From the IMG/VR virus record IMGVR_UViG_3300021963_000150, positions 1 to 57,305 of that record: a stretch of DNA of 57,305 nt; one strand, given 5' to 3'. The DNA is from a virus. The position numbers were made by a program, and so were the translations under genes. The notes beneath the pieces were generated by a model. It was given only the letters and a program-made list of their open reading frames with translations. It was not told the origin of the DNA and did no database searches. The first letter of the stretch is position 1. Each line of letters starts with the position of its first letter. Positions 15,298 through 48,437 of the stretch are shown here, in pieces.

Positions 15298-15331
15298 ACT
15301 TCCTCTGTCCCCGTCACCCCCGTAAGGATTT
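15298..15331 (-). promoter_or_regulatory. Leaderless-type element promoter for 15079-15297
   Basis: AAATCCTTAC, 10-bp spacer, GGGACAG, 7 bp, then ATG as +1. Confidence 0.8.
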
Positions 15332-15362
15332 GGGGCAGGGGGCGAACCCCCACCCCGTAGGG

Positions 15363-15536
15363 TCACCCCTTGATGATGTCACCATCCCAAATCGCTCGTT
15401 CCGCGCAACCGTTTCCTCGGAGCGAACCACACAAGGCGATGCTCCCATCGGTCACTGCGTCGTCTGCGTGGCACGGGTGTCCGCACTCATCGCACATAAC
15501 GGGTTCTTCCACATCTTGGTAGTAGTTGGTGTTCAT
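15363..15536 (-). CDS. Small zinc-binding-type protein, 57 aa
   Basis: CDECGHPCH near residue 15 and later Cys residues (LCGS, GNGC) make a likely zinc ribbon. ATG 15536 is fixed by the promoter element immediately upstream. Function unknown. Confidence 0.8.
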   Translation of the reverse strand: MNTNYYQDVEEPVMCDECGHPCHADDAVTDGSIALCGSLRGNGCAERAIWDGDIIKG

Positions 15537-15570
15537 GCCTACTCTGTCCCCACCCAACCAGTATGGATTT
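15537..15570 (-). promoter_or_regulatory. Leaderless-type element promoter for 15363-15536
   Basis: AAATCCATAC, 10 bp, GGGACAG, 7 bp, ATG. A perfect DnaA box lies just upstream. Confidence 0.8.
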
Positions 15571-15590
15571 CCACAACCGCCTGTGGATAA
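15571..15590. promoter_or_regulatory. DnaA-box pair upstream of a block promoter
   Basis: Perfect TGTGGATAA at 15582-15590 facing a partial TCCACA, forming an inverted pair that abuts the AAATCC box. The rest of the 15537-15927 gap holds an ACGGTGGCGGAAAG element and no gene. Confidence 0.6.
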
Positions 15591-15711
15591 CAATTAGTGC
15601 TAATTCGCAAGCGTTGCTAACTTACCCGTGGGTAACTTGTATGATGCAAGTATCTTGTTACGCCTTACAGGGCACAACAAAGTCCCGCTCGAGTCGAAGC
15701 CTCAACACTTT

Positions 15712-15725
15712 ACGGTGGCGGAAAG
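15712..15725 (+). repeat. Dispersed ACGGTGGCGGAAAG element
   Basis: Exact copy in the gap before the plus-strand gene at 15928; AGTCCCG lies 30 bases upstream. Confidence 0.85.
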
Positions 15726-15893
15726 CGACACGCAGATAGATTCAGTTGGACACCTTATGCCCACTTTCGGTGTAGATAGATTCAGAACGAGGAGCATCTC
15801 GCCTCGAAGCACGGGACTTCTCCCCGAACTCGAGGGCGCGGCAAATCTCAAATCTCCTCAACGGCAAAAAGAATAAAAAAACAGTGTGAGTCC

Positions 15894-15927
15894 AAATCCT
15901 TAGAGGGAGAGACGAGACAGAATAAGC
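15894..15927 (+). promoter_or_regulatory. Leaderless-type element promoter for 15928-16098 (plus strand)
   Basis: AAATCCTTAG, 10 bp, GAGACAG, 7 bp, ATG at 15928. One of four plus-strand copies; it points into a plus-strand gene. Confidence 0.78.
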
Positions 15928-16098
15928 ATGGACACCGACGACATCCTTGACCAGATACTTCGCCCACTCACCGAGTGCTGTGGACGAATCCCAACGAACC
16001 ACCTCGCAGACAAGCGGTACTGCCACTACTGCGAGATGAGCGCAGAGTGGTGCCAGTGCGATACGCAGGACATCTGCCAATGCGAGGGGGACAAGTGA
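15928..16098 (+). CDS. Cys-rich small protein, 56 aa
   Basis: Contains CCG, YCHYC, WCQC and ICQC motifs, suggesting one or two zinc sites. ATG fixed by the promoter element. Overlaps the next gene by GTGA. Plus-strand island within a minus-strand region. Confidence 0.8.
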   Translation: MDTDDILDQILRPLTECCGRIPTNHLADKRYCHYCEMSAEWCQCDTQDICQCEGDK

Positions 16099-16214
16099 GC
16101 CTAGACACCTTCCTCTGCCTGCTACTGGGTACCGCCACAAGCATCCCGTGCGGATGGTTCTTCATCAGAATCGCCGACCACATCTCTGGGCAAAACAAAC
16201 TCTGGGGCAAGTAA
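16095..16214 (+). CDS. Tiny membrane protein, 39 aa
   Basis: GTG start overlapping the previous stop. One hydrophobic segment (residues about 5-24) and a short basic tail. Function unknown. Confidence 0.6.
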   Translation: MSLDTFLCLLLGTATSIPCGWFFIRIADHISGQNKLWGK

Positions 16215-16728
16215 CCACGAGCGGGGCTTCGCCACTGTCGGTGGTCACTACACGTCTTAGATAAATCTACACGAACGTGTTTTATGGGGGGCGGATGACA
16301 TCAAATCTCACGGAAAGTGAAAACGCCGGGAAATTCGCGGGCTTTTCGCCTTTGTTTCGCCTCTCTCAGTAGTCCCGCAGCGTCGCCCCAGCGTGTCCTA
16401 CCGAACTCAACTCTTGATTCCACACTCACTCAGGGTGGTCAATCGGTGTTTATCATCACTCCGAGTGGTATTGAGTAAGGTATGAGGAATGGTGTGTGGT
16501 GTGTGGTTCCCCCCATGAACTGCGAGCCAGAGGTCGGCTGATGTGGGAGTCCCGGGACGACCCCCAGACCCGCACGGTGATGTCTCTGTCCCTCGGGGTT
16601 CTCTTCTCCCCCTCTATGTCTCTCCCTCTGTATCTACCGCCTTCGTTATCCGTTGAGGAAGTAAAAGCGCCCATTTGTCTACGAGGAGTTGCACCGAGAC
16701 GGGACTAACCCGCACTACGGTGACAGGG
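16215..16728. other. Intergenic region without recognised gene
   Basis: No ORF with coding character, promoter element or terminator. Contains a palindromic AGATAAATCT (16259-16268) that recurs as AGATTTATCT near 52012, and a pyrimidine-rich run near 16580-16650. Confidence 0.5.
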
Positions 16729-16914
16729 ATGGAGCATGATGAAATCGCTAGTCGCCTTGACCGCCTAAATGCCGACCTAGCCCGCCTAGAGGATGTCATC
16801 GGCACGGTCTACGAGGAAGTTCTTCGCCTTCGAGCCGATGTCTCGGGGACGGAGCCCCGCGGTCGACGCTGGGAAGTGTCCTCGGTCAAGTGGTTCCCCC
16901 CGATGCCCGATTGA
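16729..16914 (+). CDS. Coiled-coil small protein, 61 aa
   Basis: Residues about 5-35 show a heptad pattern (ASRLDRLNADLARLEDVIGTVYEEVLRL split by hydrophobics every 3-4 residues). ATG 16729 is 7 bases after TACGGT, a leaderless-type -10. The last residues are Trp/Pro-rich. Confidence 0.6.
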   Translation: MEHDEIASRLDRLNADLARLEDVIGTVYEEVLRLRADVSGTEPRGRRWEVSSVKWFPPMPD

Positions 16915-16956
16915 CGGGCGAGTGGGGGGAGGGTCTCCCCTGCCCCCCGTGACCCG

Positions 16957-17127
16957 TCAGAGCCAATCGAAAAGGTCCCCGTCGGCGATTTCGGAGTAGT
17001 CGAGGTCATTCGCATCGGCGATTGCCTGCCAGACCGCATCCTCCGTGACGGGGGAATCCCAATCAACGTAGTCCTGCCAATCCTTGCTCGGCGTGGGGGT
17101 GGGTTCGGTGTCATGTGAGTGTTCCAT
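16957..17127 (-). CDS. Acidic small protein, 56 aa
   Basis: Strongly acidic, Asp/Trp-rich (DWQDYVDWDS, DLFDWL). ATG fixed by the promoter element at 17128. Such charge suggests a DNA-mimic or protein-binding role, but this is a guess. Confidence 0.78.
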   Translation of the reverse strand: MEHSHDTEPTPTPSKDWQDYVDWDSPVTEDAVWQAIADANDLDYSEIADGDLFDWL

Positions 17128-17161
17128 ACCTACTCTGTCTCATCCTCTCGGATAAGGATTT
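17128..17161 (-). promoter_or_regulatory. Leaderless-type element promoter for 16957-17127
   Basis: AAATCCTTAT, 10 bp, GAGACAG, 7 bp, ATG. Back-to-back with the plus-strand copy at 17178, 16 bases apart. Confidence 0.8.
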
Positions 17162-17177
17162 AGGCAACACGCTGGAC

Positions 17178-17211
17178 AAATCCTTACTGGCACGTCGGGG
17201 ACAGACTAGGC
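17178..17211 (+). promoter_or_regulatory. Leaderless-type element promoter for 17212-17421 (plus strand)
   Basis: AAATCCTTAC, 10 bp, GGGACAG, 7 bp, ATG. Divergent with 17128-17161. Confidence 0.8.
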
Positions 17212-17421
17212 ATGAGCCACTACCTAGAAATCAACGACACACTGACCGGTGACCTACTGGACATCATCCCGTTCTGCTCGGACTACTGCCACTATTGGTA
17301 CTGCCACGAGAACAACGTGGAGTACGGGGGATGGAACGGGTGTCACGAGCATCCCTACGACGACGAGTGCCGTGAGTGTGGCACTCTCATCAAGGGGCTC
17401 GAGCAGGCGGTTGCCTGCTAA
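17212..17421 (+). CDS. Cys/His-rich small protein, 69 aa
   Basis: Motifs CSDYCHYWYC, CHEHP and CRECG suggest a two-zinc fold. ATG fixed by the promoter element at 17178. Confidence 0.8.
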   Translation: MSHYLEINDTLTGDLLDIIPFCSDYCHYWYCHENNVEYGGWNGCHEHPYDDECRECGTLIKGLEQAVAC

Positions 17422-17840
17422 CCCCCCCCGCCACGGTTCTGCCCACACGCAACAGCAAGTGAGCGTGCGGGACGTGCCCGCCCGTGCCGTCGCCCCTATC
17501 AAGGGTGATAGCACGGGCATTTGGCGTTCTGAGCAGGGATTATAGCGAATACGCTCTCCGAGTAGCCAGAGCCAGCGTCACCCCTGCCCCCACCCGTGTC
17601 GACGCCGGACGTCCCGTGGTCGACTCGAGCCGCCACAACTGTGGGTCATTTCCAAAATTTGCCGATTGAGCAGGGGTGATGGCAGTGATAGCAGGGCTTC
17701 GAGGAAGACGGGACTATCCCATGCTGAGCGTGGGTGCTGTGGTTGTGGGGGTAAATAGAGAACCGGAGAGGCTTATCCAGCCCCTCCGGTGGCGAGGAAT
17801 CGCGTTCCTAATGCCCGTGTGGGCTATGTTGCCTGTCCGA
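17422..17840. other. Intergenic region with inverted repeats
   Basis: No ORF. Nested hairpin at about 17477-17521 (GCCCGTGC with GCACGGGC, inner CTATC/GATAG), and a 10-bp perfect long-range pairing TCACCCCTGC (17579-17588) with GCAGGGGTGA (17671-17680). Possibly a structured RNA or 3' region. Confidence 0.4.
17762..17790 (-). terminator. Hairpin terminator after 17841-17966
   Basis: CCGGAG-GG and CC-CTCCGG stem followed on the minus strand by TTCTCTATTT. Confidence 0.65.
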
Positions 17841-17966
17841 CTACTTGCGGACGAGGGAACGGACGACCGCGTGTTTGGCGCGAGCGAACAAGCCGAGCGA
17901 AACGCCCATGACCCAGTGTCCGTCATCCTCCTGTACGGCTTCGTACCGAGTGAAAAGGTTCATCAT
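17841..17966 (-). CDS. Small protein, 41 aa
   Basis: Preceded by AGGAGGTG; either of two adjacent ATGs (17966, 17963) may start it. In this case the promoter element puts +1 eight bases before ATG, leaving a short leader that is essentially the ribosome site. Basic C-terminus (RAKHAVVRSLVRK). Confidence 0.7.
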   Translation of the reverse strand: MMNLFTRYEAVQEDDGHWVMGVSLGLFARAKHAVVRSLVRK

Positions 17967-17974
17967 CACCTCCT

Positions 17975-18008
17975 ACTGATTCTGTCCCCAGAGGTCGGGT
18001 ATGGATTT
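17975..18008 (-). promoter_or_regulatory. Leaderless-type element promoter for 17841-17966
   Basis: AAATCCATAC, 10 bp, GGGACAG, 7 bp, +1 A at 17974, then AGGAGGTGATGATG. Confidence 0.75.
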
Positions 18009-18013
18009 CCACA

Positions 18014-18025
18014 GAACAAGTGTTC
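18014..18025. promoter_or_regulatory. LexA-like box
   Basis: GAAC-AAGT-GTTC, matching the actinobacterial/Gram-positive LexA half-site pair, 6 bp upstream of the -35 box of the 17975-18008 promoter. Confidence 0.55.
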
Positions 18026-18396
18026 GCGAGTCCCGTACGGAGAATTTGTCGCCGAGGACAAGTTGTCAAGCCATCTAGCAGGGATTATGTAACAATGACA
18101 AATTTGACGAACGGTCTACTGCCGAAAATCGGGGTCGGAACTGCCGTCTGATGGGGTGATAGCACCGGACGGGACTCTCCCGAGGGGGTTGAGTGGGGGC
18201 GAAAGCAGGGTATGGAGGAGCCCCGCTCTCGCCCCCGTGTGGGGGTCGGGCGTGTTGTGGAGGCGGTCACCCGACCGCACGAGCGTTGTGGGGGCTTCTG
18301 CCCCCCGTCCCCGTGGGGGCACTTCGGGGTCACACTCCCCGTTCTGTTGCCACGCCTCATCGGCGCCGACTCTCAGTCAGACGGCTTTACAGGCTC
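18026..18396. other. Non-coding, conserved with 20.40-20.50 and 24.73-24.96 kb
   Basis: G/C-rich stretch without ORF. Its right end (about 18338-18380, GTTCTGTTGCCACG...GACTCTCAGTCAG) is related to the regions after the paralogues at 20506 and 24965; on the minus strand each forms a hairpin followed by GGCAACAGAA. Confidence 0.55.
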
Positions 18397-18534
18397 TTAG
18401 ACCAGCAGTTCGGCGATGAACCGTGCCACCGTCGCCCGAAGGGCGCTGGAGCCGGTTCTACCGTGCTGAGCCTCAGCCTGCGCCAGAGTAGCCAGCAGTT
18501 GCTGAGCCATCTGGAGCCGGAAGGACTCGCTCAT
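18397..18534 (-). CDS. Small paralogous protein A, 45 aa
   Basis: One of three paralogues (others 20506, 24965) sharing SFRLxMAQxLLATLAxAExxHGRT and ALRATVARF. Two helices. ATG 18534 has GGAGGTG upstream, located inside a five-codon leader ORF that begins at the promoter's +1 ATG (18548) and whose TGA overlaps the real start. Possibly translationally coupled to the leader. Function unknown. Confidence 0.8.
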   Translation of the reverse strand: MSESFRLQMAQQLLATLAQAEAQHGRTGSSALRATVARFIAELLV

Positions 18535-18548
18535 TCTTTCACCTCCAT
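18531..18548 (-). CDS. Leader micro-ORF of 5 codons
   Basis: ATG GAG GTG AAA GAA TGA starts at the +1 of the promoter element and ends overlapping the start of paralogue A. In paralogue C the same leader is in frame with the gene, in paralogue B it begins with GTG. Confidence 0.5.
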   Translation of the reverse strand: MEVKE

Positions 18549-18582
18549 GCCTACTCTGTCCCCGTGGGGTAGGTAAGGATTT
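18549..18582 (-). promoter_or_regulatory. Leaderless-type element promoter for paralogue A
   Basis: AAATCCTTAC, 10 bp, GGGACAG, 7 bp, leader ATG. Confidence 0.8.
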
Positions 18583-18698: not shown

Positions 18699-18707
18699 GA
18701 ACCACGC

Positions 18708-19320: not shown

Positions 19321-19354
19321 ACCTACTCTGTCTCCCGTGGCACGGTAAGGATTT
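19321..19354 (-). promoter_or_regulatory. Leaderless-type element promoter for 19189-19320 operon
   Basis: AAATCCTTAC, 10 bp, GAGACAG, 7 bp, ATG. Confidence 0.82.
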
Positions 19355-19716: not shown

Positions 19717-19750
19717 GCCTATCCTGTCCCCCGTGGCAAGGTAAGGATTT
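19717..19750 (-). promoter_or_regulatory. Leaderless-type element promoter for 19483-19716
   Basis: AAATCCTTAC, 10 bp, GGGACAG, 7 bp, ATG. Confidence 0.82.
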
Positions 19751-19767: not shown

Positions 19768-19944
19768 GCCTGTGGACAAACCTGTGGACAAACCTCAACG
19801 AAGTTCACACATCAGTCGCCCGTGCGACGGAAGTCCCGTCCGCTCGAGAGCGAAGTAAATGCGTCAAGCACACACGACATTTGCGTTCGAGGTCGTCGAA
19901 ACCCGAGTGAACCACAGCAGTCGACGAAGACGGGACTCTCGTTA

Positions 19945-20320
19945 CTCATCTCGAGGGGGTGTCGTTACTAATCTCGAGCGGTGACTCGACGCCTCGAGTG
20001 CCCCATGTCGACTCGTGGGCAGTCCCGGGACGGCTCGATGACTCGATGACTCGAGCGCTCGAGCGGTCGGGCGGTCGAGTGGGCAGTCTTGGAATGGCTC
20101 GAGTGGTCGAGCGGTCGATGACTCGAGCGGTCGACATGACTCGTCGAAAAAAGACGGGACTGGACGGACTCGAGCGCAGTTGCTGAGTGGTCGAGTGGTC
20201 GAGTGGTCGAGGACTCGAGTGGTCGAGTGGGCAGTCCCGGGACGACCCGACTCGAGCGGTCGATGGCTCGAGCGGTCGATGGCTGACTCGACTCGATGAT
20301 TTGGTTGCTCGAGCGAGAAG
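19945..20320. repeat. GTCGAG/CTCGAG-rich low-complexity tract
   Basis: About 370 bases made largely of GGTCGAGTGG, GGTCGATGACTCGAG and CTCGAGCGGTCGA words, many about 10 bases apart, with three AGTCCCG/GGGAC sites embedded. Open frames here (for example MVEWSSG...) have no coding character. The 19768-19944 part holds nothing recognised. Confidence 0.75.
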
Positions 20321-20344
20321 ACGGGACTTTCCCGTCAAAACGCA

Positions 20345-20649: not shown

Positions 20650-20661
20650 CACCTCCTCCAC

Positions 20662-20695
20662 GCCTACTCTGTCCCCGTTGAGAAGACATGGATTT
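20662..20695 (-). promoter_or_regulatory. Leaderless-type element promoter for paralogue B
   Basis: AAATCCATGT, 10 bp, GGGACAG, 7 bp, +1 GTG. Perfect DnaA box at 20726-20734 upstream. Confidence 0.75.
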
Positions 20696-21253: not shown

Positions 21254-21287
21254 ACTTACTCTGTCCCTTGGACTCCAGTAAGGATTT
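21254..21287 (-). promoter_or_regulatory. Leaderless-type element promoter for the 20788-21253 operon
   Basis: AAATCCTTAC, 10 bp, GGGACAG, 7 bp, ATG. Only the first of three overlapping genes has the element. Confidence 0.82.
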
Positions 21288-21744: not shown

Positions 21745-21778
21745 ACCTACTCTGTCTTGTGAAGGGTGGTAAGGATTT
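21745..21778 (-). promoter_or_regulatory. Leaderless-type element promoter for 21293-21744
   Basis: AAATCCTTAC, 10 bp, AAGACAG, 7 bp, ATG. It overlaps the stop of 21777-22007. Confidence 0.8.
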
Positions 21779-22592: not shown

Positions 22593-22626
22593 ACCCTCTC
22601 TGTCCCCTGATAGTCGGTAAGGATTT
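22593..22626 (-). promoter_or_regulatory. Leaderless-type element promoter for the 21777-22592 operon
   Basis: AAATCCTTAC, 10 bp, GGGACAG, 7 bp, ATG. Confidence 0.83.
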
Positions 22627-23073: not shown

Positions 23074-23107
23074 ACCTCTACTGTCTCCAGTCGTGTCGTA
23101 AGGATTT
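23074..23107 (-). promoter_or_regulatory. Leaderless-type element promoter for 22861-23073
   Basis: AAATCCTTAC, 10 bp, GAGACAG, 7 bp, ATG; its spacer is nearly identical to that at 30202. Confidence 0.82.
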
Positions 23108-23435: not shown

Positions 23436-23469
23436 ACTTCTACTGTCCGTTGCCGTCAGATAAGGATTT
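23436..23469 (-). promoter_or_regulatory. Leaderless-type element promoter for 23112-23435
   Basis: AAATCCTTAT, 10 bp, CGGACAG, 7 bp, ATG. It also encodes the last residues of the upstream gene. Confidence 0.8.
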
Positions 23470-23960: not shown

Positions 23961-23994
23961 ACCTACTCTGTCCCCGAGCCTCTGATAAGGATTT
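23961..23994 (-). promoter_or_regulatory. Leaderless-type element promoter for 23440-23960
   Basis: AAATCCTTAT, 10 bp, GGGACAG, 7 bp, ATG; lies inside the 3' end of 23963-24157. Confidence 0.8.
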
Positions 23995-24643: not shown

Positions 24644-24677
24644 ACTTCCCCTGTCTCTTGATGGTCGGTAAGGATTT
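24644..24677 (-). promoter_or_regulatory. Leaderless-type element promoter for the 23963-24643 operon
   Basis: AAATCCTTAC, 10 bp, GAGACAG, 7 bp, ATG. Perfect DnaA box at 24687-24695. Confidence 0.82.
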
Positions 24678-25117: not shown

Positions 25118-25151
25118 GCCTACTCTGTCCCCTGATGGTCAGTAAGGATTT
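25118..25151 (-). promoter_or_regulatory. Leaderless-type element promoter for paralogue C
   Basis: AAATCCTTAC, 10 bp, GGGACAG, 7 bp, ATG at 25117. Confidence 0.82.
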
Positions 25152-26070: not shown

Positions 26071-26104
26071 ACCCTCTCTGTCTCAACGTCACTCATAAGG
26101 ATTT
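26071..26104 (-). promoter_or_regulatory. Leaderless-type element promoter for the 25314-26070 operon
   Basis: AAATCCTTAT, 10 bp, GAGACAG, 7 bp, ATG; spacer and box nearly identical to 29835. Confidence 0.82.
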
Positions 26105-26848: not shown

Positions 26849-26882
26849 GTCTTCTCTGTCTCGCCGTTGCCGGTATGGATTT
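26849..26882 (-). promoter_or_regulatory. Leaderless-type element promoter for 26525-26848
   Basis: AAATCCATAC, 10 bp, GAGACAG, 7 bp, ATG. Confidence 0.8.
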
Positions 26883-27176: not shown

Positions 27177-27210
27177 ACCTACTCTGTCTCCGACCCATCC
27201 GTGTGGATTT
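27177..27210 (-). promoter_or_regulatory. Leaderless-type element promoter for 26958-27176
   Basis: AAATCCACAC, 10 bp, GAGACAG, 7 bp, ATG. Upstream: TGTGGACAA variants and a perfect DnaA box at 27232-27240. Confidence 0.78.
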
Positions 27211-27693: not shown

Positions 27694-28069
27694 GCACCTT
27701 TTACGACATGCTCAGGTCGGCGTGACTCCTACTGATACGGCTTCTCAAGGTCACGACAACCCGTATCGCACCGCTGTTTCCCACAGCAGTATGGGGGAGG
27801 ACAGAGGGAGCGACCCTCTGCCTGTCAAGCAACGCCTACCTTGCGCCCGTAGCCTAATTTGTCGCCCCACGCGACCGGCTACACACGGAGGGGCTTTCTC
27901 GGCATACGAGACTCGCTGTTCTCCCCCGATGCGGGAGACTTCGCTACCCTGTTACGACTTACAGGTCGTAACCCCAAAACGGCTGTAACCCTTTTGGGTG
28001 GTTCTCTTACGAGGGTTTCCCCTCCGCTCTGAGCCTAAAAGACTGTTTAGAGTCGCTCAGACGACTTGT
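27692..28069 (-). ncRNA. Highly structured non-coding RNA of about 380 nt
   Basis: A promoter element (28070-28103) identical in design to those of the neighbouring genes points into a stretch with no ORF but at least ten hairpins. Helices (top-strand positions): 28028-28034/28055-28061 enclosing 28035-28039/28046-28050; 28011-28015/28020-28024; 27973-27979/27992-27998; 27951-27958/27965-27972; 27921-27925/27933-27937; 27849-27854/27877-27882 enclosing 27861-27865/27871-27875; 27802-27808/27814-27820; 27773-27777/27783-27787. Near the 3' end 27721-27726/27750-27755 and 27734-27740/27761-27767 interlock as a pseudoknot. A last hairpin (27692-27713) may be the terminator. Not tmRNA or RNase P by visible motifs. 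Predicted +1 is A at 28069; ends are inferred. Confidence 0.75.
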
Positions 28070-28274
28070 AACTACCCTGTCCCCAGTCGTGCCGTAAGGA
28101 TTTGGGAGTTAGTGATGGGTAATCATACTCGGCGGTAATGAGTGCTGGCACAACCCCCAGCCTACGACCCTTGTTGTCCCACCACTCCCACGCATCACGC
28201 TTGGAGGCGAATGGTCCGTAGAGTCCCGTTGGCGTTACTCGCTCATCGGCAAAGAAGTATCCCTTGCGAGTCAC
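28047..28274 (-). CDS. Hypothetical protein, 75 aa
   Basis: GTG 28274 overlaps the previous stop (GTGA). Contains GLYGPFASKRDAWEWWD. Its 3' end runs through the ncRNA promoter and about 23 bases into the ncRNA. Confidence 0.68.
   Translation of the reverse strand: MTRKGYFFADERVTPTGLYGPFASKRDAWEWWDNKGRRLGVVPALITAEYDYPSLTPKSLRHDWGQGSYKSSERL
28070..28103 (-). promoter_or_regulatory. Leaderless-type element promoter driving the structured ncRNA
   Basis: AAATCCTTAC, 10 bp, GGGACAG, 7 bp, then A at +1 with no start codon. It shows the element is a transcription signal rather than a translation signal. Confidence 0.82.
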
Positions 28275-28711: not shown

Positions 28712-28745
28712 ACCCGTACTGTCTCTGGTCGGCTGGTAAGGATTT
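28712..28745 (-). promoter_or_regulatory. Leaderless-type element promoter for 28047-28711
   Basis: AAATCCTTAC, 10 bp, GAGACAG, 7 bp, ATG. Confidence 0.82.
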
Positions 28746-29477: not shown

Positions 29478-29511
29478 GTCTCTTCTGTCTCCAGTCTGTC
29501 GGTAAGGATTT
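29478..29511 (-). promoter_or_regulatory. Leaderless-type element promoter for 28744-29477
   Basis: AAATCCTTAC, 10 bp, GAGACAG, 7 bp, ATG. Confidence 0.82.
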
Positions 29512-29834: not shown

Positions 29835-29868
29835 ACCCTCTCTGTCTCAACGTCGGGCATAAGGATTT
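29835..29868 (-). promoter_or_regulatory. Leaderless-type element promoter for 29553-29834
   Basis: AAATCCTTAT, 10 bp, GAGACAG, 7 bp, ATG; perfect DnaA box at 29877-29885 facing TCCACAG. Confidence 0.82.
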
Positions 29869-30201: not shown

Positions 30202-30235
30202 AGTTCCTCTGTCTCCAGTCGTGTCGTAAGGATTT
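30202..30235 (-). promoter_or_regulatory. Leaderless-type element promoter for 30019-30201
   Basis: AAATCCTTAC, 10 bp, GAGACAG, 7 bp, ATG. Confidence 0.82.
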
Positions 30236-31061: not shown

Positions 31062-31095
31062 ACTTCTACTGTCCCCCAGACTCCGATAAGGATTT
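31062..31095 (-). promoter_or_regulatory. Leaderless-type element promoter for 30247-31061
   Basis: AAATCCTTAT, 10 bp, GGGACAG, 7 bp, ATG; overlaps the 3' codons of 31066-31323. Confidence 0.8.
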
Positions 31096-31323: not shown

Positions 31324-31357
31324 ACTTCTACTGTCCCCTGCCATCGGGTAAGGATTT
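31324..31357 (-). promoter_or_regulatory. Leaderless-type element promoter for 31066-31323
   Basis: AAATCCTTAC, 10 bp, GGGACAG, 7 bp, ATG. Confidence 0.82.
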
Positions 31358-31682: not shown

Positions 31683-31716
31683 GCCACTCCTGTCTCGGGG
31701 TGTCGTGTAAGGATTT
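31683..31716 (-). promoter_or_regulatory. Leaderless-type element promoter for 31362-31682
   Basis: AAATCCTTAC, 10 bp, GAGACAG, 7 bp, ATG; spacer identical to 38495. Confidence 0.82.
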
Positions 31717-32390: not shown

Positions 32391-32424
32391 ACCTCTACTG
32401 TCTCCTATTCACCCGTAAGGATTT
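32391..32424 (-). promoter_or_regulatory. Leaderless-type element promoter for 31815-32390
   Basis: AAATCCTTAC, 10 bp, GAGACAG, 7 bp, ATG; spacer identical to 40286. Confidence 0.82.
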
Positions 32425-33358: not shown

Positions 33359-33392
33359 ACCTCTACTGTCCCCTCGCCTGCCGTATGGATTT
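33359..33392 (-). promoter_or_regulatory. Leaderless-type element promoter for the 32405-33358 operon
   Basis: AAATCCATAC, 10 bp, GGGACAG, 7 bp, ATG; overlaps the 3' codons of 33363-33647. Confidence 0.8.
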
Positions 33393-34344: not shown

Positions 34345-34646
34345 ACCCCCTCTGTCTCAGGATTGCCCGTAAGGATTTGCCGTTTCCCTTTCTTGGTTGG
34401 CTTCCTATGGCGAGATGAGACAGGCTCAACAGCCCCGTTGGTGAACTCACGGATGATTTTCCGCAGGTTATGGAGGTCATTTCTTGGGTCGGTCGGTGTT
34501 AGAGCAATCATCTGCGTCCGTCCTCCCAGACGAATCATCACATGGTTCTTTCCTGTGATTTTCAGCAAGCCACCCATCTCCGTAATCTGTCGGAGAAGTG
34601 GGCGAACTTCCTTGTCGCAGGCTCTAATGATGCTGTGGTGGTTCAT
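34341..34646 (-). CDS. HicA-like small protein, 101 aa
   Basis: KEVRPLLRQITEMGG, TGKNHVMIRLGG and a PTDPRNDLHNLRKII segment fit the double-stranded-RNA-binding-like fold of HicA toxins, with the His in the expected strand. No HicB partner is adjacent, so it may be a solitary homologue. AAGGGGAA precedes the ATG. Confidence 0.6.
   Translation of the reverse strand: MNHHSIIRACDKEVRPLLRQITEMGGLLKITGKNHVMIRLGGRTQMIALTPTDPRNDLHNLRKIIREFTNGAVEPVSSRHRKPTKKGKRQILTGNPETEGV
34345..34378 (-). promoter_or_regulatory. Leaderless-type element promoter for the 33363-34344 operon
   Basis: AAATCCTTAC, 10 bp, GAGACAG, 7 bp, ATG. Confidence 0.82.
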
Positions 34647-36687: not shown

Positions 36688-36721
36688 GTTTCCTCTGTCT
36701 CCCTTTGTCCTGTAAGGATTT
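36688..36721 (-). promoter_or_regulatory. Leaderless-type element promoter for the 35356-36687 operon
   Basis: AAATCCTTAC, 10 bp, GAGACAG, 7 bp, ATG. Confidence 0.82.
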
Positions 36722-37693: not shown

Positions 37694-37893
37694 ACCCCCT
37701 CTGTCCCCTCGTCTGCCGTATGGATTTGCTCGTACTCGCAACGCATCCCGTTACACGACCCGTATGACTTACAGTACGACTCGTAGTTCAGGCACTCGGA
37801 GTCACGGTTATCGTGGACAACGATGGTCTCAGAGTCCCGTTTACCGCTCCGCTTGCCCAACTTGTAGGCGATGACGGTCGTGAACAGACCCAT
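37690..37893 (-). CDS. Small Cys-containing protein, 67 aa
   Basis: Basic N-terminus; SECLNYESYCKSYGSCNGMRC may bind metal. TAATG overlap before; its 3' end contains the next promoter and ends in ATGA overlap with it. Confidence 0.72.
   Translation of the reverse strand: MGLFTTVIAYKLGKRSGKRDSETIVVHDNRDSECLNYESYCKSYGSCNGMRCEYEQIHTADEGTEGV
37694..37727 (-). promoter_or_regulatory. Leaderless-type element promoter for the 36727-37693 operon
   Basis: AAATCCATAC, 10 bp, GGGACAG, 7 bp, ATG. Confidence 0.82.
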
Positions 37894-38494: not shown

Positions 38495-38528
38495 ACCGCT
38501 TCTGTCTCGGGGTGTCGTGTAAGGATTT
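38495..38528 (-). promoter_or_regulatory. Leaderless-type element promoter for the 37690-38494 operon
   Basis: AAATCCTTAC, 10 bp, GAGACAG, 7 bp, ATG. Confidence 0.82.
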
Positions 38529-38921: not shown

Positions 38922-38984
38922 GGTTCTCTCCCACAAAATGACTCACTCATCATTTTCGGTTCTCTCAACGACACTGGCTTACAA
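38922..38984 (+). repeat. Four-unit copy of the 18-bp-period repeat
   Basis: GGTTCTCTC (38922), GACTCACTC (38940), GGTTCTCTC (38958) and GGCTT (38976) keep the exact 18-bp step of the large array at 14.5-15.0 kb. It lies directly upstream of the lipoprotein gene. Confidence 0.85.
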
Positions 38985-39866
38985 CTTGGGCTTTGCGTCC
39001 TCAACCGCTTTGGCGTGTGCCTCGGGGATGTGCGGAATCGGAATGTAATGGGCGTGTCCACCGTGTTCCAGTACCCACGGCTTCGGGGGCAACTTGCCGT
39101 TGTGGGCAAAGTAAGCCACCTCAAACCAATGCGACAGGAAAATCTTGGTGGCATAGCGACGGGCTTGTAGTTCTATCCGTCCCGCTGGCAACATTCCCCG
39201 TTCCAGCGTCGCTCGCAAGTCCTTGTCTCGGATGTTCTTGGAGTTCAGGGTTTCTTTGGCGAGGTCGGCGTAGTCCCCAGCCTCGTTCTTGGCGAGGCGA
39301 CGAGCCTTGTCTTGGGCGTACAACTTGCCGTAGAAGCAGTCATCTCGCTTGTGGAACTTCATAAACGAGTCGCCAATCTTGTAGCACAGAAGTTTGAGTT
39401 CGGCATTCCACGGTCGCTTCTCGCCCTTGTCCCACTTGGTATTCGGGTCTAGACCGGCGTATCGCCAAATTTGTCCGACCGTTTCCACCCGTGAGATGTC
39501 AATGTGGGCGAGTAGCCCCGCACTGATGACATGACCAATGCCGTACTGCTCCATTGCCCAACGCCCAGCGGTGTGTGCTTCGGCAAACTTCTTTAGAGCA
39601 GGCTTGACAGATTCCTCCAACACAGCCATCTGAACATGGAAGTGGTCAATGATGGTGTTGTCATCGGCGGTGAGCGAGGCTTTCTGATTGCCCATACCGA
39701 CTCGCATCTTCTGTAGGCGGTAGTAGAAGTCCACCAACGCCCTTGCTCCTGACGCATCCAGCGTCCCTGCCTTTACGAGGAGGTCTTTCTCTAGTCGCTT
39801 GGCGACCTCGGGGGCGAGAAAGTCCTCTGTCTCCATGAGGAGACTGTCGTAGTAGGAGTCGGTCAC
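38979..39866 (-). CDS. IS110 Transposase_20-like helix-hairpin-helix protein
   Basis: GTG 39866 overlaps the previous stop. The 295-residue protein has YGIGHVISAGLLAHIDI and QIWRYAGLDPNTKWDKGEKRPWN, closely following the C-terminal domain of IS110/IS116 transposases (GIGPVTAAxLLAxI...YAGLxP). No N-terminal DEDD RuvC-type domain and no flanking repeats are apparent, so it is probably a phage DNA-binding protein derived from, or sharing a fold with, that domain. Confidence 0.75.
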   Translation of the reverse strand: MTDSYYDSLLMETEDFLAPEVAKRLEKDLLVKAGTLDASGARALVDFYYRLQKMRVGMGNQKASLTADDNTIIDHFHVQMAVLEESVKPALKKFAEAHTAGRWAMEQYGIGHVISAGLLAHIDISRVETVGQIWRYAGLDPNTKWDKGEKRPWNAELKLLCYKIGDSFMKFHKRDDCFYGKLYAQDKARRLAKNEAGDYADLAKETLNSKNIRDKDLRATLERGMLPAGRIELQARRYATKIFLSHWFEVAYFAHNGKLPPKPWVLEHGGHAHYIPIPHIPEAHAKAVEDAKPKL

Positions 39867-40285: not shown

Positions 40286-40319
40286 GTCTCTACTGTCTCC
40301 TATTCACCCGTAAGGATTT
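40286..40319 (-). promoter_or_regulatory. Leaderless-type element promoter for 38979-40285
   Basis: AAATCCTTAC, 10 bp, GAGACAG, 7 bp, ATG. Confidence 0.82.
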
Positions 40320-41455: not shown

Positions 41456-41838
41456 AGTTCCTCTGTCGCCACAGTGTCGGTAAGGATTTTGACCCCGTGA
41501 GCCTCCATCCACCCCTCGGGCGTGAACTCTCCGCACCCGTAGTGAATCTTGGGCATGGCTCCGAATCCATCCCATACGACATAGGGAATCTCATGCTCGT
41601 TATCGCACGGTGAGCCAACGGAGATGCCGTAGCCCGTAGAGCCACCCGTCAAGCCCGTGAGGGTGTCAAAGATGATTCGTGTCGCATAGGAGGGGTCGTC
41701 CAAGCGTCGCTCCTCAGCACACTTACGCAGTCCCTCTGCGAGGACATGGCACACTTCGCTACCGCCCCAGTGCGTGTAGAGGTAGATACTCACTTCCTCA
41801 TGCGGTTGGCGAATGCCAATGTTTCCACGGTCACCCAT
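41452..41838 (-). CDS. Conserved MGDRGNI-type protein, 128 aa
   Basis: MGDRGNI, VSIYLYTHWGGSE and a GYGIS segment mark a small family found in actinobacterial phages and genomes; function unknown. AAGGAG precedes ATG 41838. Confidence 0.85.
   Translation of the reverse strand: MGDRGNIGIRQPHEEVSIYLYTHWGGSEVCHVLAEGLRKCAEERRLDDPSYATRIIFDTLTGLTGGSTGYGISVGSPCDNEHEIPYVVWDGFGAMPKIHYGCGEFTPEGWMEAHGVKILTDTVATEEL
41456..41489 (-). promoter_or_regulatory. Leaderless-type element promoter for the 40443-41455 operon
   Basis: AAATCCTTAC, 10 bp, GCGACAG, 7 bp, ATG. Confidence 0.8.
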
Positions 41839-42268: not shown

Positions 42269-42654
42269 GGTTTCACTGTCCCCGTGTCCGTCGTAAGGAT
42301 TTCGTCGTAGGTAAGTCGGAAGATGGATACAACATTTATCGGCTCAAACGCATCCGTAGGGTCGTCGCCCCACGACATACCGCCCGTGATGAGCCAATCA
42401 GTCCCGTCAATGGTGCGTACATCGGTTTCACGGGAGCCACGCTCGTAGTACCCGTAGACCTCGGCAACCTTGCCCGTGAGCCACTCAATCGCTTCGGCGT
42501 ATTCATCTTCGTCAGATTCGTTGCCGAACTCCATCGCACAGTAGTTGTACATAGTGTGAAGCACATCTTCTTGCGTGAGCGACTTCAGTTTGGCAATCGC
42601 TTCGTCCTGCGTCTTACGCATCGGAATCATGGCGACGATTAGGTCAGCACCCAT
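42265..42654 (-). CDS. Hypothetical protein, 129 aa
   Basis: N-terminal MGADLIVAMIPM, WLITGGMSWGDDPTD late: this start and Trp-Gly-Asp-Asp-Pro segment recur in small conserved bacterial/phage proteins. AAGGAG precedes the ATG; stop overlaps the next ATG. Confidence 0.8.
   Translation of the reverse strand: MGADLIVAMIPMRKTQDEAIAKLKSLTQEDVLHTMYNYCAMEFGNESDEDEYAEAIEWLTGKVAEVYGYYERGSRETDVRTIDGTDWLITGGMSWGDDPTDAFEPINVVSIFRLTYDEILTTDTGTVKP
42269..42302 (-). promoter_or_regulatory. Leaderless-type element promoter for 41452-42268
   Basis: AAATCCTTAC, 10 bp, GGGACAG, 7 bp, ATG; lies within the 3' codons of 42265-42654. Confidence 0.82.
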
Positions 42655-43090: not shown

Positions 43091-43404
43091 GCCTGTCCTG
43101 TCCCAATGTCGTCCGTAAGGATTTCGGTCAGAATGTCCTCATTGTCGGCGAGGCTCCAATACTGGTCAAGCAAGCGACAACGCTCGCACTCCTCGGCAAT
43201 GCCGTTGTTCTCAAACTCGGGAGCCTCAAAGATGAGGTACAGCATTCGCTCCGCAGGGGTCTTACGCTCCATGATGGGAGCCATCTTGGTTTCCCATTCG
43301 GCGTATTCGGGCGTTGATGAGCATTGGCACTCCTGCTTGCCAACAAAGGACTTCATTGCGTCAGCAATAACTCGCCAGTTGGGGTTGCTTGATGAATCGG
43401 TCAT
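43087..43404 (-). CDS. Hypothetical protein, 105 aa, Cys pairs
   Basis: CQC and CERC separated by about 45 residues may form a zinc site. ATG fixed by promoter; stop overlaps the next gene. Confidence 0.78.
   Translation of the reverse strand: MTDSSSNPNWRVIADAMKSFVGKQECQCSSTPEYAEWETKMAPIMERKTPAERMLYLIFEAPEFENNGIAEECERCRLLDQYWSLADNEDILTEILTDDIGTGQA
43091..43124 (-). promoter_or_regulatory. Leaderless-type element promoter for the 42265-43090 chain
   Basis: AAATCCTTAC, 10 bp, GGGACAG, 7 bp, ATG. Confidence 0.82.
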
Positions 43405-43438
43405 GTCTCCACTGTCTCCGTGTCTGTCGTAAGGATTT
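43405..43438 (-). promoter_or_regulatory. Leaderless-type element promoter for 43087-43404
   Basis: AAATCCTTAC, 10 bp, GAGACAG, 7 bp, ATG. Confidence 0.82.
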
Positions 43439-44476: not shown

Positions 44477-44510
44477 ACTTCTACTGTCCCCCAGTATCCG
44501 ATAAGGATTT
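44477..44510 (-). promoter_or_regulatory. Leaderless-type element promoter for 43781-44476
   Basis: AAATCCTTAT, 10 bp, GGGACAG, 7 bp, ATG. Confidence 0.82.
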
Positions 44511-45335: not shown

Positions 45336-45396
45336 GTGTATCCAATGCGTGATGTAAGCGGAAATTACTTCATCCGACAACCTAGTGTGACGAGAG

Positions 45397-45618
45397 TCAC
45401 AGACTAGGGTCGGCTGTGGGGCATGAGTCAAACCACTCCTGCCATGTACGTCCTGTGGTTCGCACGAGTTCCCCATCGGTGTAGAAGTCCATCAGTAGCC
45501 CCTCGTTTGTGAGGTGGACGATACAGACATTCTGCTTGAGGTCGTACTTGTCGTCAATGACCGTAACAACGATGTCCAATGGTTCGCTGATACCGCAGTC
45601 AAAGTCAATCGGCTTCAC
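45397..45618 (-). CDS. Hypothetical protein, 73 aa
   Basis: GTG 45618 with GGAG 6 bases upstream, overlapping the previous gene by 14. Beta-rich (LDIVVTVIDDKYDL). Confidence 0.72.
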   Translation of the reverse strand: MKPIDFDCGISEPLDIVVTVIDDKYDLKQNVCIVHLTNEGLLMDFYTDGELVRTTGRTWQEWFDSCPTADPSL

Positions 45619-45832
45619 TCATGGCTCCTGTCGTGATGATGTCGGTGAGTCGTTGCGTCATCTCCCTGATGTCCTCTAAGAGCGTCGTCGCAAACAGCGT
45701 GATGTCCTCGTCAGGGCTTCCGTCCGTCCATTCGTTTATGGCATCTACGAATAGGTTGTGGAAGGCTCGGTATGTATTCCATCCCCAAGCGTCGGGGTCG
45801 GGGAGCAGTGCGTAGAGTTCCGTGCGGTTCAT
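45605..45832 (-). CDS. Hypothetical protein, 75 aa
   Basis: Helical; TELYALLPDPDAWGWNTYRAF. ATGA overlap with the sigma region 4 gene. Confidence 0.74.
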   Translation of the reverse strand: MNRTELYALLPDPDAWGWNTYRAFHNLFVDAINEWTDGSPDEDITLFATTLLEDIREMTQRLTDIITTGAMSEAD

Positions 45833-46086
45833 GCGTCCTCCGTCTGTGCGTCAAACGCCCCCCGTTGGACGAGGCTCTGAATGGCTCGTGCCTCGGTGCG
45901 ACGGACGCTTTCACGGGTTTCCCCGTTGCCAAGAATCTCGGCGACCTCACTGAGGGTTCGTGCGATGAATCCGTTGTCCACTCCGTATCGGAGCGTGAGA
46001 ACCTGTCGCTCGTGCGTGTCCAGCATCTCCAAAATCTGAATGCGACGCTCCCGTGGGTACGAGGCGAGGTTGATGTTGTAACTCAC
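45829..46086 (-). CDS. Sigma-70 region-4-only protein
   Basis: 85 residues. LDTHERQVLTLRYGVDNGF..RTLSEVAEILGNGETRESVRRTEARAIQSL follows region 4 of primary sigma factors (LDxREREVLxLRFGL...TLEEIGxxLGxTRERVRQIExxAL) almost position by position, but regions 1-3 are absent. It could contact the -35 box or dock on RNA polymerase. It is the sixth gene of an operon itself driven by the AAATCC element at 47013, a possible positive loop. Confidence 0.85.
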   Translation of the reverse strand: MSYNINLASYPRERRIQILEMLDTHERQVLTLRYGVDNGFIARTLSEVAEILGNGETRESVRRTEARAIQSLVQRGAFDAQTEDA

Positions 46087-46280
46087 TTATCCTCCTCAAA
46101 GGTGTCAAAGCCTTCTAGGGCTTCCAACATCTCTTGATGGTTCGTGGTCATTTGGGCAATACGCAAGAGCAACGCCTTGATGACGAGCATTGGCTCGTTC
46201 CTGAGGCAATCGTCGGCATCCTCATACTCGGAGCCAGCCACAGCGACACCCAGCGAGTAAGCGTGGTTGTAGGTGGTCAT
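46083..46280 (-). CDS. Hypothetical protein, 65 aa
   Basis: Helical; overlaps both neighbours (TGATG before, ATGA after). Confidence 0.74.
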   Translation of the reverse strand: MTTYNHAYSLGVAVAGSEYEDADDCLRNEPMLVIKALLLRIAQMTTNHQEMLEALEGFDTFEEDK

Positions 46281-46504
46281 CAGTCCCCCTCAAAGTATTC
46301 AGGGTAATGACCCTCAATGACGAACTCGGGGTTCGCCGATTCCGCAACTCGGTAGTAGAGCGACCCATCAGGCTCACGAATGAACTCAATCGCAAAGATT
46401 TCATCGTCAGCAACACAGATGGACATTAGGTACGGGCTGTCCTTGCGACAGTCGTCCTTGTGAACGATGACAATCGCATCATTCCCTCGGTGTATTTCGG
46501 TCAT
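46280..46504 (-). CDS. Hypothetical protein, 74 aa
   Basis: Beta-rich with DAIVIVHKDDC and LMSICVADDEIFAIEFI. TGATG/ATGA overlaps on both sides. Confidence 0.74.
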   Translation of the reverse strand: MTEIHRGNDAIVIVHKDDCRKDSPYLMSICVADDEIFAIEFIREPDGSLYYRVAESANPEFVIEGHYPEYFEGD

Positions 46505-46710
46505 CAGAGGCTCACCATCATGTCGTCGGGCTTGTGTCCAATCGCACGGAGAACGAGGCTTCCCAAAGGGACGCTATGTCCACCGAACTCCCTGTCCAGC
46601 ACATCGGCGTGATACAGGGCAACGCCCGTGGGCATAATCGCTTCGGAGAAAGCCACAGCGTCCTCCAGTGTCTCAAAGTTCATCGTCAGGGTGTACTTCT
46701 TCGGTTTCAT
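46504..46710 (-). CDS. Hypothetical protein, 68 aa
   Basis: GAGGAG precedes ATG 46710, which overlaps the previous stop. Small alpha/beta protein. Confidence 0.75.
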   Translation of the reverse strand: MKPKKYTLTMNFETLEDAVAFSEAIMPTGVALYHADVLDREFGGHSVPLGSLVLRAIGHKPDDMMVSL

Positions 46711-47012
46711 ACTGTCTCCTCAATGTTCTCGCCGTAGTTGGCGATTCCGTGCTTGCTTTCGTCGTAACACTCGGTGTGGTAGTTGCCGTAGTGGTAGTTG
46801 CCGTCCTCGTCCTCAAACTCCACTCGGGTTTCGTGGTCAAGGTAAATCTGCTTCTCGCACTCGTCGCACTCAAAGCCCGAACACTCGGCACAGCCCCAGC
46901 CGTCATCCACGGGGATGCGGTTGATGAACTTGCCGATGAGTGAGCCGTCCGCACGGGTCGCACCGAACTCGGTGGACTCTCCGCAATAGACGCAGTTGTA
47001 GTTCGTAGTCAT
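46707..47012 (-). CDS. Zinc-finger protein, 101 aa
   Basis: CVYCG, GCAECSGFECDEC and a later HTEC give two possible zinc sites. Heads the eight-gene operon 47012 to 45397 containing the region-4 gene. ATG fixed by promoter. Confidence 0.8.
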   Translation of the reverse strand: MTTNYNCVYCGESTEFGATRADGSLIGKFINRIPVDDGWGCAECSGFECDECEKQIYLDHETRVEFEDEDGNYHYGNYHTECYDESKHGIANYGENIEETV

Positions 47013-47419
47013 AAGGCTTCTGTCGCCAATCGTGCCGTAAGGATTTCGGCATCACGGACACACCACCCGTGGGCGTACCCGTCGGCATAGCGTGTCGGGC
47101 GAGAACCGTCGCCCTTGCCACGCATCGGCTCACCGCACTCACCACACGACTCGTCGTAGTGCCACTCGGCAGGCTCCTGAATGAAGCCGATGGTGACGAA
47201 CTCGCCATACGCCGTACGACCGTCAATGGTCATCGGGTAGGCGGTCACACGGGTTGGCTGGTCGTATTGCCCGCTCCCAAGTTCGTAGGAGTCCCAGATG
47301 TTCACATCCCAGTCGTCGTTGTACGCACCCCACCAGTCGCCCCCGTATTCGGATTTGGGCATGGTGTCCAGTTGTTGTTGCGCCCAAGCGAGAATCGCCT
47401 GCTTCATCTGTTCGTTCAT
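47009..47419 (-). CDS. Hypothetical protein, 136 aa
   Basis: Trp/Tyr/Asp-rich; CGECGEP near residue 92 and a later Cys may bind zinc. ATG fixed by promoter. Confidence 0.78.
   Translation of the reverse strand: MNEQMKQAILAWAQQQLDTMPKSEYGGDWWGAYNDDWDVNIWDSYELGSGQYDQPTRVTAYPMTIDGRTAYGEFVTIGFIQEPAEWHYDESCGECGEPMRGKGDGSRPTRYADGYAHGWCVRDAEILTARLATEAL
47013..47046 (-). promoter_or_regulatory. Leaderless-type element promoter for the eight-gene operon 45397-47012
   Basis: AAATCCTTAC, 10 bp, GCGACAG, 7 bp, ATG; within the 3' codons of 47009-47419. Confidence 0.8.
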
Positions 47420-47784
47420 GCTCCCTCTGTCTCCTTGTAGGTCGTAAGGATTTGCTGACGGATGCGACGCACCAGTTCTGATGCCTGCGAGCCACGACCG
47501 TTGTAGTCGTTGTTGGAGTCAATGCCCAACGCACCGCAGAGCCAGTAGAGGAACGACAGGTTGTAGACACCCTCCATCTTGTCCACGGGGTTGCCGTTGG
47601 CATCAAAGATGGTGGACTTCGGGTTGGAATAGTCGGATTCCAGCGTCTGAATGAGTCGTGCCTTGCGGAGTTCATCCTCGGTGAAGTGGGGGGCGTAGAA
47701 CTCGGGAAGGAAGATGGTATGCCCGTCGCCGATGACTTTGCCGTCAGCGAGGGCGTTGCTTGTGCGTTGTAGTAAGTCGGTCAT
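47416..47784 (-). CDS. Hypothetical protein, 122 aa
   Basis: Alpha/beta, ends in helical Lys/Arg-rich segment. ATG fixed by promoter. Right-most gene of the minus-strand region. Confidence 0.78.
   Translation of the reverse strand: MTDLLQRTSNALADGKVIGDGHTIFLPEFYAPHFTEDELRKARLIQTLESDYSNPKSTIFDANGNPVDKMEGVYNLSFLYWLCGALGIDSNNDYNGRGSQASELVRRIRQQILTTYKETEGA
47420..47453 (-). promoter_or_regulatory. Leaderless-type element promoter for 47009-47419
   Basis: AAATCCTTAC, 10 bp, GAGACAG, 7 bp, ATG. Confidence 0.82.
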
Positions 47785-47818
47785 ACTCCCTCTGTCCCCC
47801 GACACGGGATAAGGATTT
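47785..47818 (-). promoter_or_regulatory. Leaderless-type element promoter for 47416-47784
   Basis: AAATCCTTAT, 10 bp, GGGACAG, 7 bp, ATG. Divergent from the plus-strand copy at 47861. Confidence 0.82.
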
Positions 47819-47860
47819 ATGGGTCGTGAACAGCGGAAAAGCCCCGCGATGAGGGCTGGG

Positions 47861-47896
47861 AAATCCTTACGGTGGTCATTGGGGCAGTGTGATTCT
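47861..47896 (+). promoter_or_regulatory. Degenerate leaderless-type element promoter for 47897-48385
   Basis: AAATCCTTAC, 10 bp, GGGGCAG, then 9 bp to the first ATG. Confidence 0.65.
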
Positions 47897-48385
47897 ATGA
47901 TGACCGACATGACCCAACCATTGACTGAGCAAGAGGCGGTACGCCGTTACAAGGAGGGCGTTGCCCTGTTGGAGAAGGAGTACGGGAGCGTATTCCGTGC
48001 GCCCTCCGAGGAAGTCCGTGAGAACTCCGAGCGCATGAGGGCGTTCTACGTCATTCAGAAGTACGGCGGTTCCATCACTCGCCAAGTGCTGTCCCAATAC
48101 ATGATTCCCCCCTCCATTGCCGAGGCTGTTCTTGCCGAGTGTGGGGGCGATGGGGTGACGACCGTTGAGCCGAAAGTGAGCCGTGCCGACCAATACAAGG
48201 CGTTTGAGCAGTGGGCGAGCGACCACGACTCCGAGCAGTTCACGACCGACCAGTTAGTTGAGCAGTCGGGATTCTCGTACCCCACCGTTCTCAAGTTCAT
48301 TGAGGGCAGTCCGTACTTCCGCAAGGTAAAGAAGGGCTTGTACGAGTGTCGTAACGACCGCCTGCGTCGGGAGCAAGCCGAATAA
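47897..48385 (+). CDS. Winged-helix-like DNA-binding protein, 162 aa
   Basis: Starts at either of two adjacent ATGs. The C-terminal half (QFTTDQLVEQSGFSYPTVLKFI...FRKVKKGLYE) looks like a winged helix; an earlier ITRQVLSQYMIPPSIAEAVL may be a second one. Precedes the AAA+/VWA pair on the same strand. Confidence 0.72.
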   Translation: MMTDMTQPLTEQEAVRRYKEGVALLEKEYGSVFRAPSEEVRENSERMRAFYVIQKYGGSITRQVLSQYMIPPSIAEAVLAECGGDGVTTVEPKVSRADQYKAFEQWASDHDSEQFTTDQLVEQSGFSYPTVLKFIEGSPYFRKVKKGLYECRNDRLRREQAE

Positions 48386-48403
48386 CCCCTGCGTGAGGGT
48401 CGC

Positions 48404-48437
48404 AAATCCTTACGGCGAGGGTTGCGACAGTAGGGGT
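48404..48437 (+). promoter_or_regulatory. Leaderless-type element promoter for 48438-50674 (plus strand)
   Basis: AAATCCTTAC, 10 bp, GCGACAG, 7 bp, ATG at 48438. Confidence 0.8.

Follow-up and report, generated by a model that had tools for sequence, protein, structure and literature searches.

The window, that is, the whole stretch of 57,305 nucleotides of the IMG/VR virus record IMGVR_UViG_3300021963_000150 that was analysed, carries a two-box motif repeated dozens of times and locked to start codons. The window and most of the related contigs are fragments, and the gene calls used for the window are our own predictions. Exact matches to the motif, AAATCCWTAY-N10-RRGACAG, number 38 in the window, and in 36 of these an ATG stands exactly 7 bases downstream. 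A position matrix derived from these 38 matches recovers 47 copies scoring at least 22.6, far above the maximum of 12.6 reached in simulated sequence of the same dinucleotide content. Between 15,298 and 48,437, the scan reproduces the 46 copies (42 on the minus strand and 4 on the plus strand) counted in an earlier note made from the letters alone. That note had reported none in the flanks; this needs correction, as the 47th copy is located beyond the interval, at 1,407-1,440 (+), where it falls within the 3' end of the gene upstream; its start codon is at 1,441, and it is also kept in relatives.

The geometry is rigid, nearly as fixed as the earlier note had described. The distance from AAATCC to GACAG is 22 bases in 46 copies, 21 or 23 being never seen, and 7 bases separate GACAG from ATG in 43 of 46 copies. 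If the A of the start codon is taken as +1, AAATCCWTAY (box 1) occupies -34 to -25 with its centre at -29.5, and RRGACAGW (box 2) occupies the -10 region, with a G at -12 in all 38 seed copies.

Distribution of the motif copies

On the plus strand, besides the copy at 1,407, the motif lies at 15,894-15,927 (start 15,928), 17,178-17,211 (start 17,212), 47,861-47,894 (reading GGGGCAG, with the ATG 2 nt further, at 47,897) and 48,404-48,437 (start 48,438). The minus-strand copies, with the start codon in brackets, begin with 15,298-15,331 (15,297), 15,537-15,570 (15,536; preceded by a TTATCCACA..TGTGG palindrome) and 17,128-17,161 (17,127), the last being divergent with the copy at 17,178-17,211. 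They continue with 19,321-19,354 (19,320), 19,717-19,750 (19,716), 21,254-21,287 (21,253), 21,745-21,778 (21,744), 22,593-22,626 (22,592), 23,074-23,107 (23,073), 23,436-23,469 (23,435), 23,961-23,994 (23,960), 24,644-24,677 (24,643), 25,118-25,151 (25,117), 26,071-26,104 (26,070), 26,849-26,882 (26,848) and 27,177-27,210 (AAATCCACAC; 27,176). Then follow 28,712-28,745 (28,711), 29,478-29,511 (29,477), 29,835-29,868 (29,834), 30,202-30,235 (30,201), 31,062-31,095 (31,061), 31,324-31,357 (31,323), 31,683-31,716 (31,682), 32,391-32,424 (32,390), 33,359-33,392 (33,358), 34,345-34,378 (34,344), 36,688-36,721 (36,687), 38,495-38,528 (38,494), 40,286-40,319 (40,285), 43,405-43,438 (43,404), 44,477-44,510 (44,476) and 47,785-47,818 (47,784).

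Six further minus-strand copies lie inside the upstream gene, at 37,694-37,727 (37,693), 41,456-41,489 (41,455), 42,269-42,302 (42,268), 43,091-43,124 (43,090), 47,013-47,046 (47,012) and 47,420-47,453 (47,419), and the genes that they precede overlap the upstream gene by 4 nt. The claim that only operon heads carry the motif thus does not hold; gene 1,441 also overlaps its upstream gene, and four further motif-led genes begin 2-4 bp from an upstream stop.

In four minus-strand copies the predicted +1 is not the start of the called gene or has no start codon at all. At 17,975-18,008 (+1 at 17,974), a AGGAGGTGATG leader precedes the gene start at 17,966; at 18,549-18,582, the +1 is 18,548; at 20,662-20,695 (AAATCCATGT), it is 20,661; and the copy at 28,070-28,103 (+1 at 28,069) leads into a predicted non-coding RNA. 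The earlier note had proposed that the extra leader at displaced starts contains a ribosome site. This stands for 17,974, which has a Shine-Dalgarno (SD) leader; at 18,548 there is instead a short upstream open reading frame, and at 20,661 an in-frame GTG at the +1 itself. The upstream frame (18,548-18,531, minus strand) is a predicted leaderless frame of five codons (ATGGAGGTGAAAGAATGA) whose stop overlaps the ATG of the next gene. Another displaced start is that at 47,895, with its ATG 2 nt later, and 25,117 has an in-frame ATG at +1.

Evidence for transcription initiation

The base at -1 is a pyrimidine in all 47 motif copies, compared with 14 of 47 internal genes lacking the motif, and the predicted +1 is an A in 45 of the 47 copies. 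A pyrimidine at -1 followed by a purine at +1 is the usual pattern of bacterial transcription starts. This signature persists in copies without a start codon, which supports a promoter over a translation signal. For example, the step from T to A is found at 28,069, where no start codon exists and a full Pistol self-cleaving ribozyme (RF02679; 28,005-28,066, minus strand; 54.2 bits against a cut-off of 34.5) begins three bases on, in line with the earlier suggestion that one copy drives a non-coding RNA. The same step occurs at 17,974, followed by a strong ribosome site and only after that by the gene. Downstream of the ribozyme, about 800 bases (28,069 to about 27,250, minus strand) have no called genes; this stretch is perhaps a long non-coding RNA released by self-cleavage.

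The starts of motif-led genes differ from those of internal genes. SD-like 4-mers are rarer (48% vs 81%), folding over 40 nt is weaker (median -2.2 vs -5.7 kcal/mol), and the motif-led genes start A/C-rich; such A/C-rich, weakly folded and SD-poor starts would be as expected for leaderless mRNA. We propose that transcription normally starts at the A of the start codon and that most of the mRNAs are therefore leaderless. It is very likely, judging from these features, that each copy is a phage-specific promoter with transcripts beginning at this A.

A translation signal acting within longer mRNAs, comparable to the role presumed for the start-associated sequence of Cluster K mycobacteriophages, would account for the lock on start codons, for the purine-rich bases just before the ATG, and for the six array copies before genes with 4-nt overlaps, the usual place of translational coupling. 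However, the ribozyme copy has no start codon to serve, the motif stays fixed where the start is displaced and an SD sequence appears, and the pyrimidine at -1 and A at +1 are kept where there is no ATG. Together with the change of box 1 between lineages described below, these points make a translation signal very unlikely.

About ten motif copies between 15,590 and 29,885 on the minus strand (e.g., 25,198, 22,666 and 18,622) have a DnaA-box-like TT[AG]TCCACA upstream. In these copies TGTGG abuts AAATCC, and the resulting imperfect palindrome overlaps box 1; the same is seen in the related contigs G001, G002 and G004. They are possibly a subset under a second control.

The many copies in one orientation, and the TTATCCACA/TGTGG palindrome abutting about ten of them as a potential operator, could also be taken for an operator or stoperator array bound by a phage repressor, with no promoter element involved. 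But stoperators lack base-resolution locking to start codons, and the rigid +1 spacing, the initiator signature and the placement of box 2 at the -10 position of relatives argue for initiation. We hold such an array to be most improbable.

Turnover of the boxes among relatives

Relatives were found with the SNF2-type helicase of the window (2,701-4,683), which yielded 33 related contigs. L010 is the same phage (99.99%). In G001 (L012), most aligned blocks are about 77% identical, and seven copies with unchanged boxes are present. In G002, G003 and G004, whose helicases are 92-93% identical, the motif reads AAATCCAAAT plus GACA(G/A) in the same geometry. At orthologous promoters (genes 1,441, 17,212 and 22,861), these three contigs have AAAT in place of WTAY as the right half of box 1, while AAATCC and GACA are kept; one site in G004 reads AAATCT. 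A DNA-binding reader with sequence specificity would force changes to occur in concert in this way, and since box 1 changes between lineages while the ribosome does not, it speaks against a translation signal. AAATCC in other viral contigs (L009, L011, L013, L049-L059 and L061) is chance-like and comes without arrays.

A position-specific word search upstream of open frames revealed other start-locked motifs in more distant relatives, namely ATTATTGCCTGTAAGGT-N6-ATG in G006, GGTTGnnaTTgtncCtAATAACGGATACnnT-N7-ATG in G009, CATaATaACCGATAGnnT-N7-ATG in G008, and GTCTCAYnaGCGTCCCA followed by TAnnnT in G011. TANNNT occurs 25 and 17 times at -13 and -12 in G009 (6.4 expected per position), 22 and 19 times at these positions in G008 (7.9 expected), and 49 times at -12 in G006 (22.5 expected). 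From its position 6-7 nt before the ATG, this TANNNT is read as the actinobacterial leaderless arrangement, and box 2 of the window sits where G006, G008, G009 and G011 have it. In G011, one and the same promoter has the start codon at the leaderless position in 10 cases, and at least 10 others have a CACCTACTA..GGAG-type SD leader. The promoter stays while the start codon moves 20-30 bases, which a translation signal would not do. At least 10 transcripts of G011 (L086-L087, record positions 100,001-140,000) would share this conserved CACCTACTA..GGAG leader.

The primase and other proteins of the phage distantly resemble those of actinobacterial phages, and the phage is probably actinobacterial; a megablast search with the array against known phages gave no match. 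The earlier note had called the promoter class private. It is indeed lineage-specific, but no fewer than seven related contigs share it, and other lineages have versions of their own. It seems that this family of viruses has changed the switches of its genes time and again.

The bipartite layout and fixed spacing are like those of alternative-sigma promoters, so an unmodified alternative sigma of the host might read the motif with no phage factor. When one genome for each of 84,980 species was searched, however, the exact motif gave six single matches, none in Actinobacteria, against about 7.5 expected by chance (an estimate). Moreover, close relatives have switched box 1 in concert, and the upstream boxes of distant relatives are unrelated. 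A host sigma acting alone is thus improbable. Over a translation signal, the initiator signature, the ribozyme copy, the concerted change of box 1 and the promoters of relatives favor the earlier proposal of a phage-specific promoter whose transcript would begin at the start codon.

Candidate readers and the polymerase

Sigma region 2 (PF04542) was not found in eight records, three of them of 136-151 kb, with controls positive in 10. RNA polymerase beta and beta-prime (PF00562, PF00623) were likewise absent from the eight records, with 14 of 14 controls positive, a search that very divergent subunits could escape. The T7-type RNA polymerase family (PF00940) was not matched, nor did any control genome match it. 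With no polymerase subunit or complete sigma found, host RNA polymerase together with a phage factor is likely.

The leading candidate for this factor is a protein of 317 amino acids (168-1,121, plus strand) with six helix-turn-helix (HTH) repeats, for which Pfam and NCBIfam give generic HTH matches only. AlphaFold models it as six three-helix units with a mean predicted local distance difference test (pLDDT) score of 80.5. Seven contigs (the window and six others) are known to encode the protein, all of them with AAATCC..GACA, and it is missing from ten further relatives. Between the WTAY and AAAT groups, the recognition helices of repeats 2 and 3 are 67% and 89% identical, and those of repeats 1, 4, 5 and 6 are 21-44% identical; this divergence seems loosely to mirror that of the boxes, whose core is kept and whose flank differs. 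There is also a weak likeness between repeat 2 and the RpoN-box HTH of sigma-54. No match to the six-HTH protein was found among known phages. A PHROG assignment as a 'D5-like transcriptional regulator' (1e-15) was rejected as unspecific, because the profile matches 11 of 14 control genomes. We tentatively name the six-HTH protein as the reader of the promoter, an identification that is possible but short of probable. A bolder version is doubtful, namely that the six tandem HTH units read both boxes, from -34 to -8, as a ruler and alone replace the promoter recognition of sigma, and that lineages alter single HTH units and so rewrite the promoters of an entire set of genes in concert, as a modular code with one domain per few bases.

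Two proteins containing only sigma region 4 are encoded in the window and may be alternative or auxiliary factors. One, of extracytoplasmic function (ECF) type, has 70 amino acids (13,863-14,075, minus strand; PF08281, 1.2e-11); the other, of RpoD type, has 85 (45,829-46,086, minus strand; PF04545, 6.4e-9). Both match above curated cut-offs, and box 1 lies roughly where sigma region 4 would bind. The promoter could therefore be real and be read by one or both of them, either working as a split sigma or standing in for region 4 of the host sigma. The ECF-type gene is present only in G000 and G001, which have the WTAY form of box 1, and is missing between the flanking genes in G003 and G004; yet the motif of G002-G004 has the same core and geometry without this gene. 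The RpoD-type gene was found in this phage only, the contigs of relatives not reaching its position. Furthermore, neither protein has region 2, which would be needed to read GACAG, and no complete phage sigma joining regions 2 and 4 was found, only region-4 proteins. This account of the reader is somewhat unlikely.

Among known phages, the ECF-type protein has no match and the RpoD-type protein has generic region-4 matches only. The ECF-type gene is preceded by a promoter-like TGCTAGTGT-N6-ATG, which does not differ between G000 and G001. Overall, the window shows no excess of extended -10 leaderless promoters (TGNTANNNT; 3 matches vs 0-7 in controls). An 879-aa frame in G006 was also considered as a sigma because of a strong region-4 match, and was rejected, the match being an internal HTH in a long multidomain frame with no region 2.

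Proposed mechanism and its significance

The motif anatomy, rigid spacing, initiator signature, concerted evolution and equivalent promoters in relatives, all readable from the DNA, point to a phage-specific class of leaderless promoters that would be used by host polymerase, with a phage protein conferring specificity. We consider this explanation as a whole likely. AAATCCWTAY at -34 to -25 would substitute for a -35 element, with RRGACAGW in the -10 region, and the conserved A, 8 bases downstream of GACAG, would be the first base transcribed. For genes with a later start, a ribosome site would lie in the added leader, and where there is no gene, the RNA would open with the Pistol ribozyme. 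The six-HTH protein, long enough for both boxes, might recruit or re-aim host polymerase as MotA of T4 does.

Several points weigh against this explanation. The RNA start at the predicted +1 and the use of host polymerase are what we infer. The -10-like box is not TANNNT, which leaves melting by the polymerase unexplained. For the six-HTH protein, the placement of the units in the AlphaFold model is uncertain (predicted template modelling score, pTM, 0.32), and a Foldseek search with the model gave nothing below E 0.001. The motif and this protein are confined to one clade, so their co-occurrence is not statistically independent and is a lead rather than a proof. The window being a fragment, further factors may be missing from it.

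Phage-specific promoter classes and leaderless mRNAs are each already known. In the literature searched, we found no report of 40-50 base-exact leaderless promoters with no recognisable -10 element and with concerted turnover. If true, the system would offer a natural series of promoter and reader variants for dissecting promoter specificity, and an example of a virus simultaneously rewiring dozens of promoters. In uncultured actinophages, it would also allow both start codons and the starts of transcription to be called from sequence alone.

Other features of the window

The window also has a TIGR-Tas array (14,490-15,025, minus strand; for a definition of TIGR-Tas systems, see PMC12045711) with a 36-nt period, GAGAACC and (G)CGAGCCG repeats, spacers of about 9 nt and 14-15 units. 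A gene at 38,979-39,866 (minus strand) matches the NCBIfam TIGR-Tas endonuclease (178 bits; cut-off 100), and just downstream of it are two more repeats 36 nt apart (38,964 and 38,928). G002, G003 and G004 have similar arrays. A tRNA-Lys call antisense inside the TasR-like gene is probably spurious.

Seven TT[AG]TCCACA sites cluster at 51,560-51,850, a possible replication origin. Bases 1-110 are an exact inverted copy of 15,056-15,165, and the homologue of gene 15,297 in G001 has the six-HTH gene immediately after it; this gene order indicates that segment 1-15,056 is inverted in the window, whether through assembly or through a real inversion. Between genes at 19,900-20,340 (minus strand) there are dense CTCGAGT/CGAC repeats. 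In G001 and G005, an insertion of about 1 kb, which may be an intein or homing element, interrupts the primase at residue 318/319.

Comparison with known systems

The late promoters of phage AR9 read AACA-N6-TR, where R is +1, and are used by the phage's own multisubunit RNA polymerase, with leaders of 26-491 nt (PMC5312081). They are superficially like GACAG-N7-A with its pyrimidine at -1; however, they have no counterpart of box 1, and no beta or beta-prime gene was found in the window phage or its relatives. The GG at -24 and GC at -12 of sigma-54 promoters do not appear in the position counts of the motif.

In Cluster K mycobacteriophages, the start-associated sequence (SAS) is GGGATAGGAGCCC, lies 3-9 bp from the start codon and is presumed to act in translation, and the extended SAS (ESAS) is a 17-bp inverted repeat with SigA-like hexamers, whose half-sites vary by subcluster (PMC3203893, PMC11373665, PMC12699233). 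The likeness lies in a conserved sequence repeated at the start codons of many non-structural genes. The SAS is, however, shorter and differently placed, and neither GGGATAGGAGCCC within 3-9 bp of the start nor a 17-bp inverted repeat is part of the motif in the 38-47 aligned copies.

Predicted SigA-like leaderless promoters (PL1/PR2) have been described in Cluster O mycobacteriophages (PMC4351075). These and other actinobacterial SigA leaderless promoters are single promoters, whereas the window has dozens of copies, and the TANNNT 6-7 nt before the start is absent from its motif. G006, G008, G009 and G011, which keep TANNNT, are intermediate between SigA-type leaderless promoters and the class in the window.

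In the middle promoters of T4, a MotA box centred at about -30 replaces the -35 element, host polymerase is redirected through sigma appropriation, and a good -10 element is required (PMC6755090). Box 1, centred at -29.5 from the inferred +1, would likewise stand in place of a -35 element; the difference is that the window has RRGACAGW and no near-consensus sigma-70 -10 element. As far as we know, the middle mRNAs of T4 have no such tie to the start codon. Neither the MotA nor the AsiA family is among the 25 of 34 Pfam families listed for the window, which is a fragment. None of these families shares all its features with the class described here, which in the way it would work is most like the T4 middle promoters.

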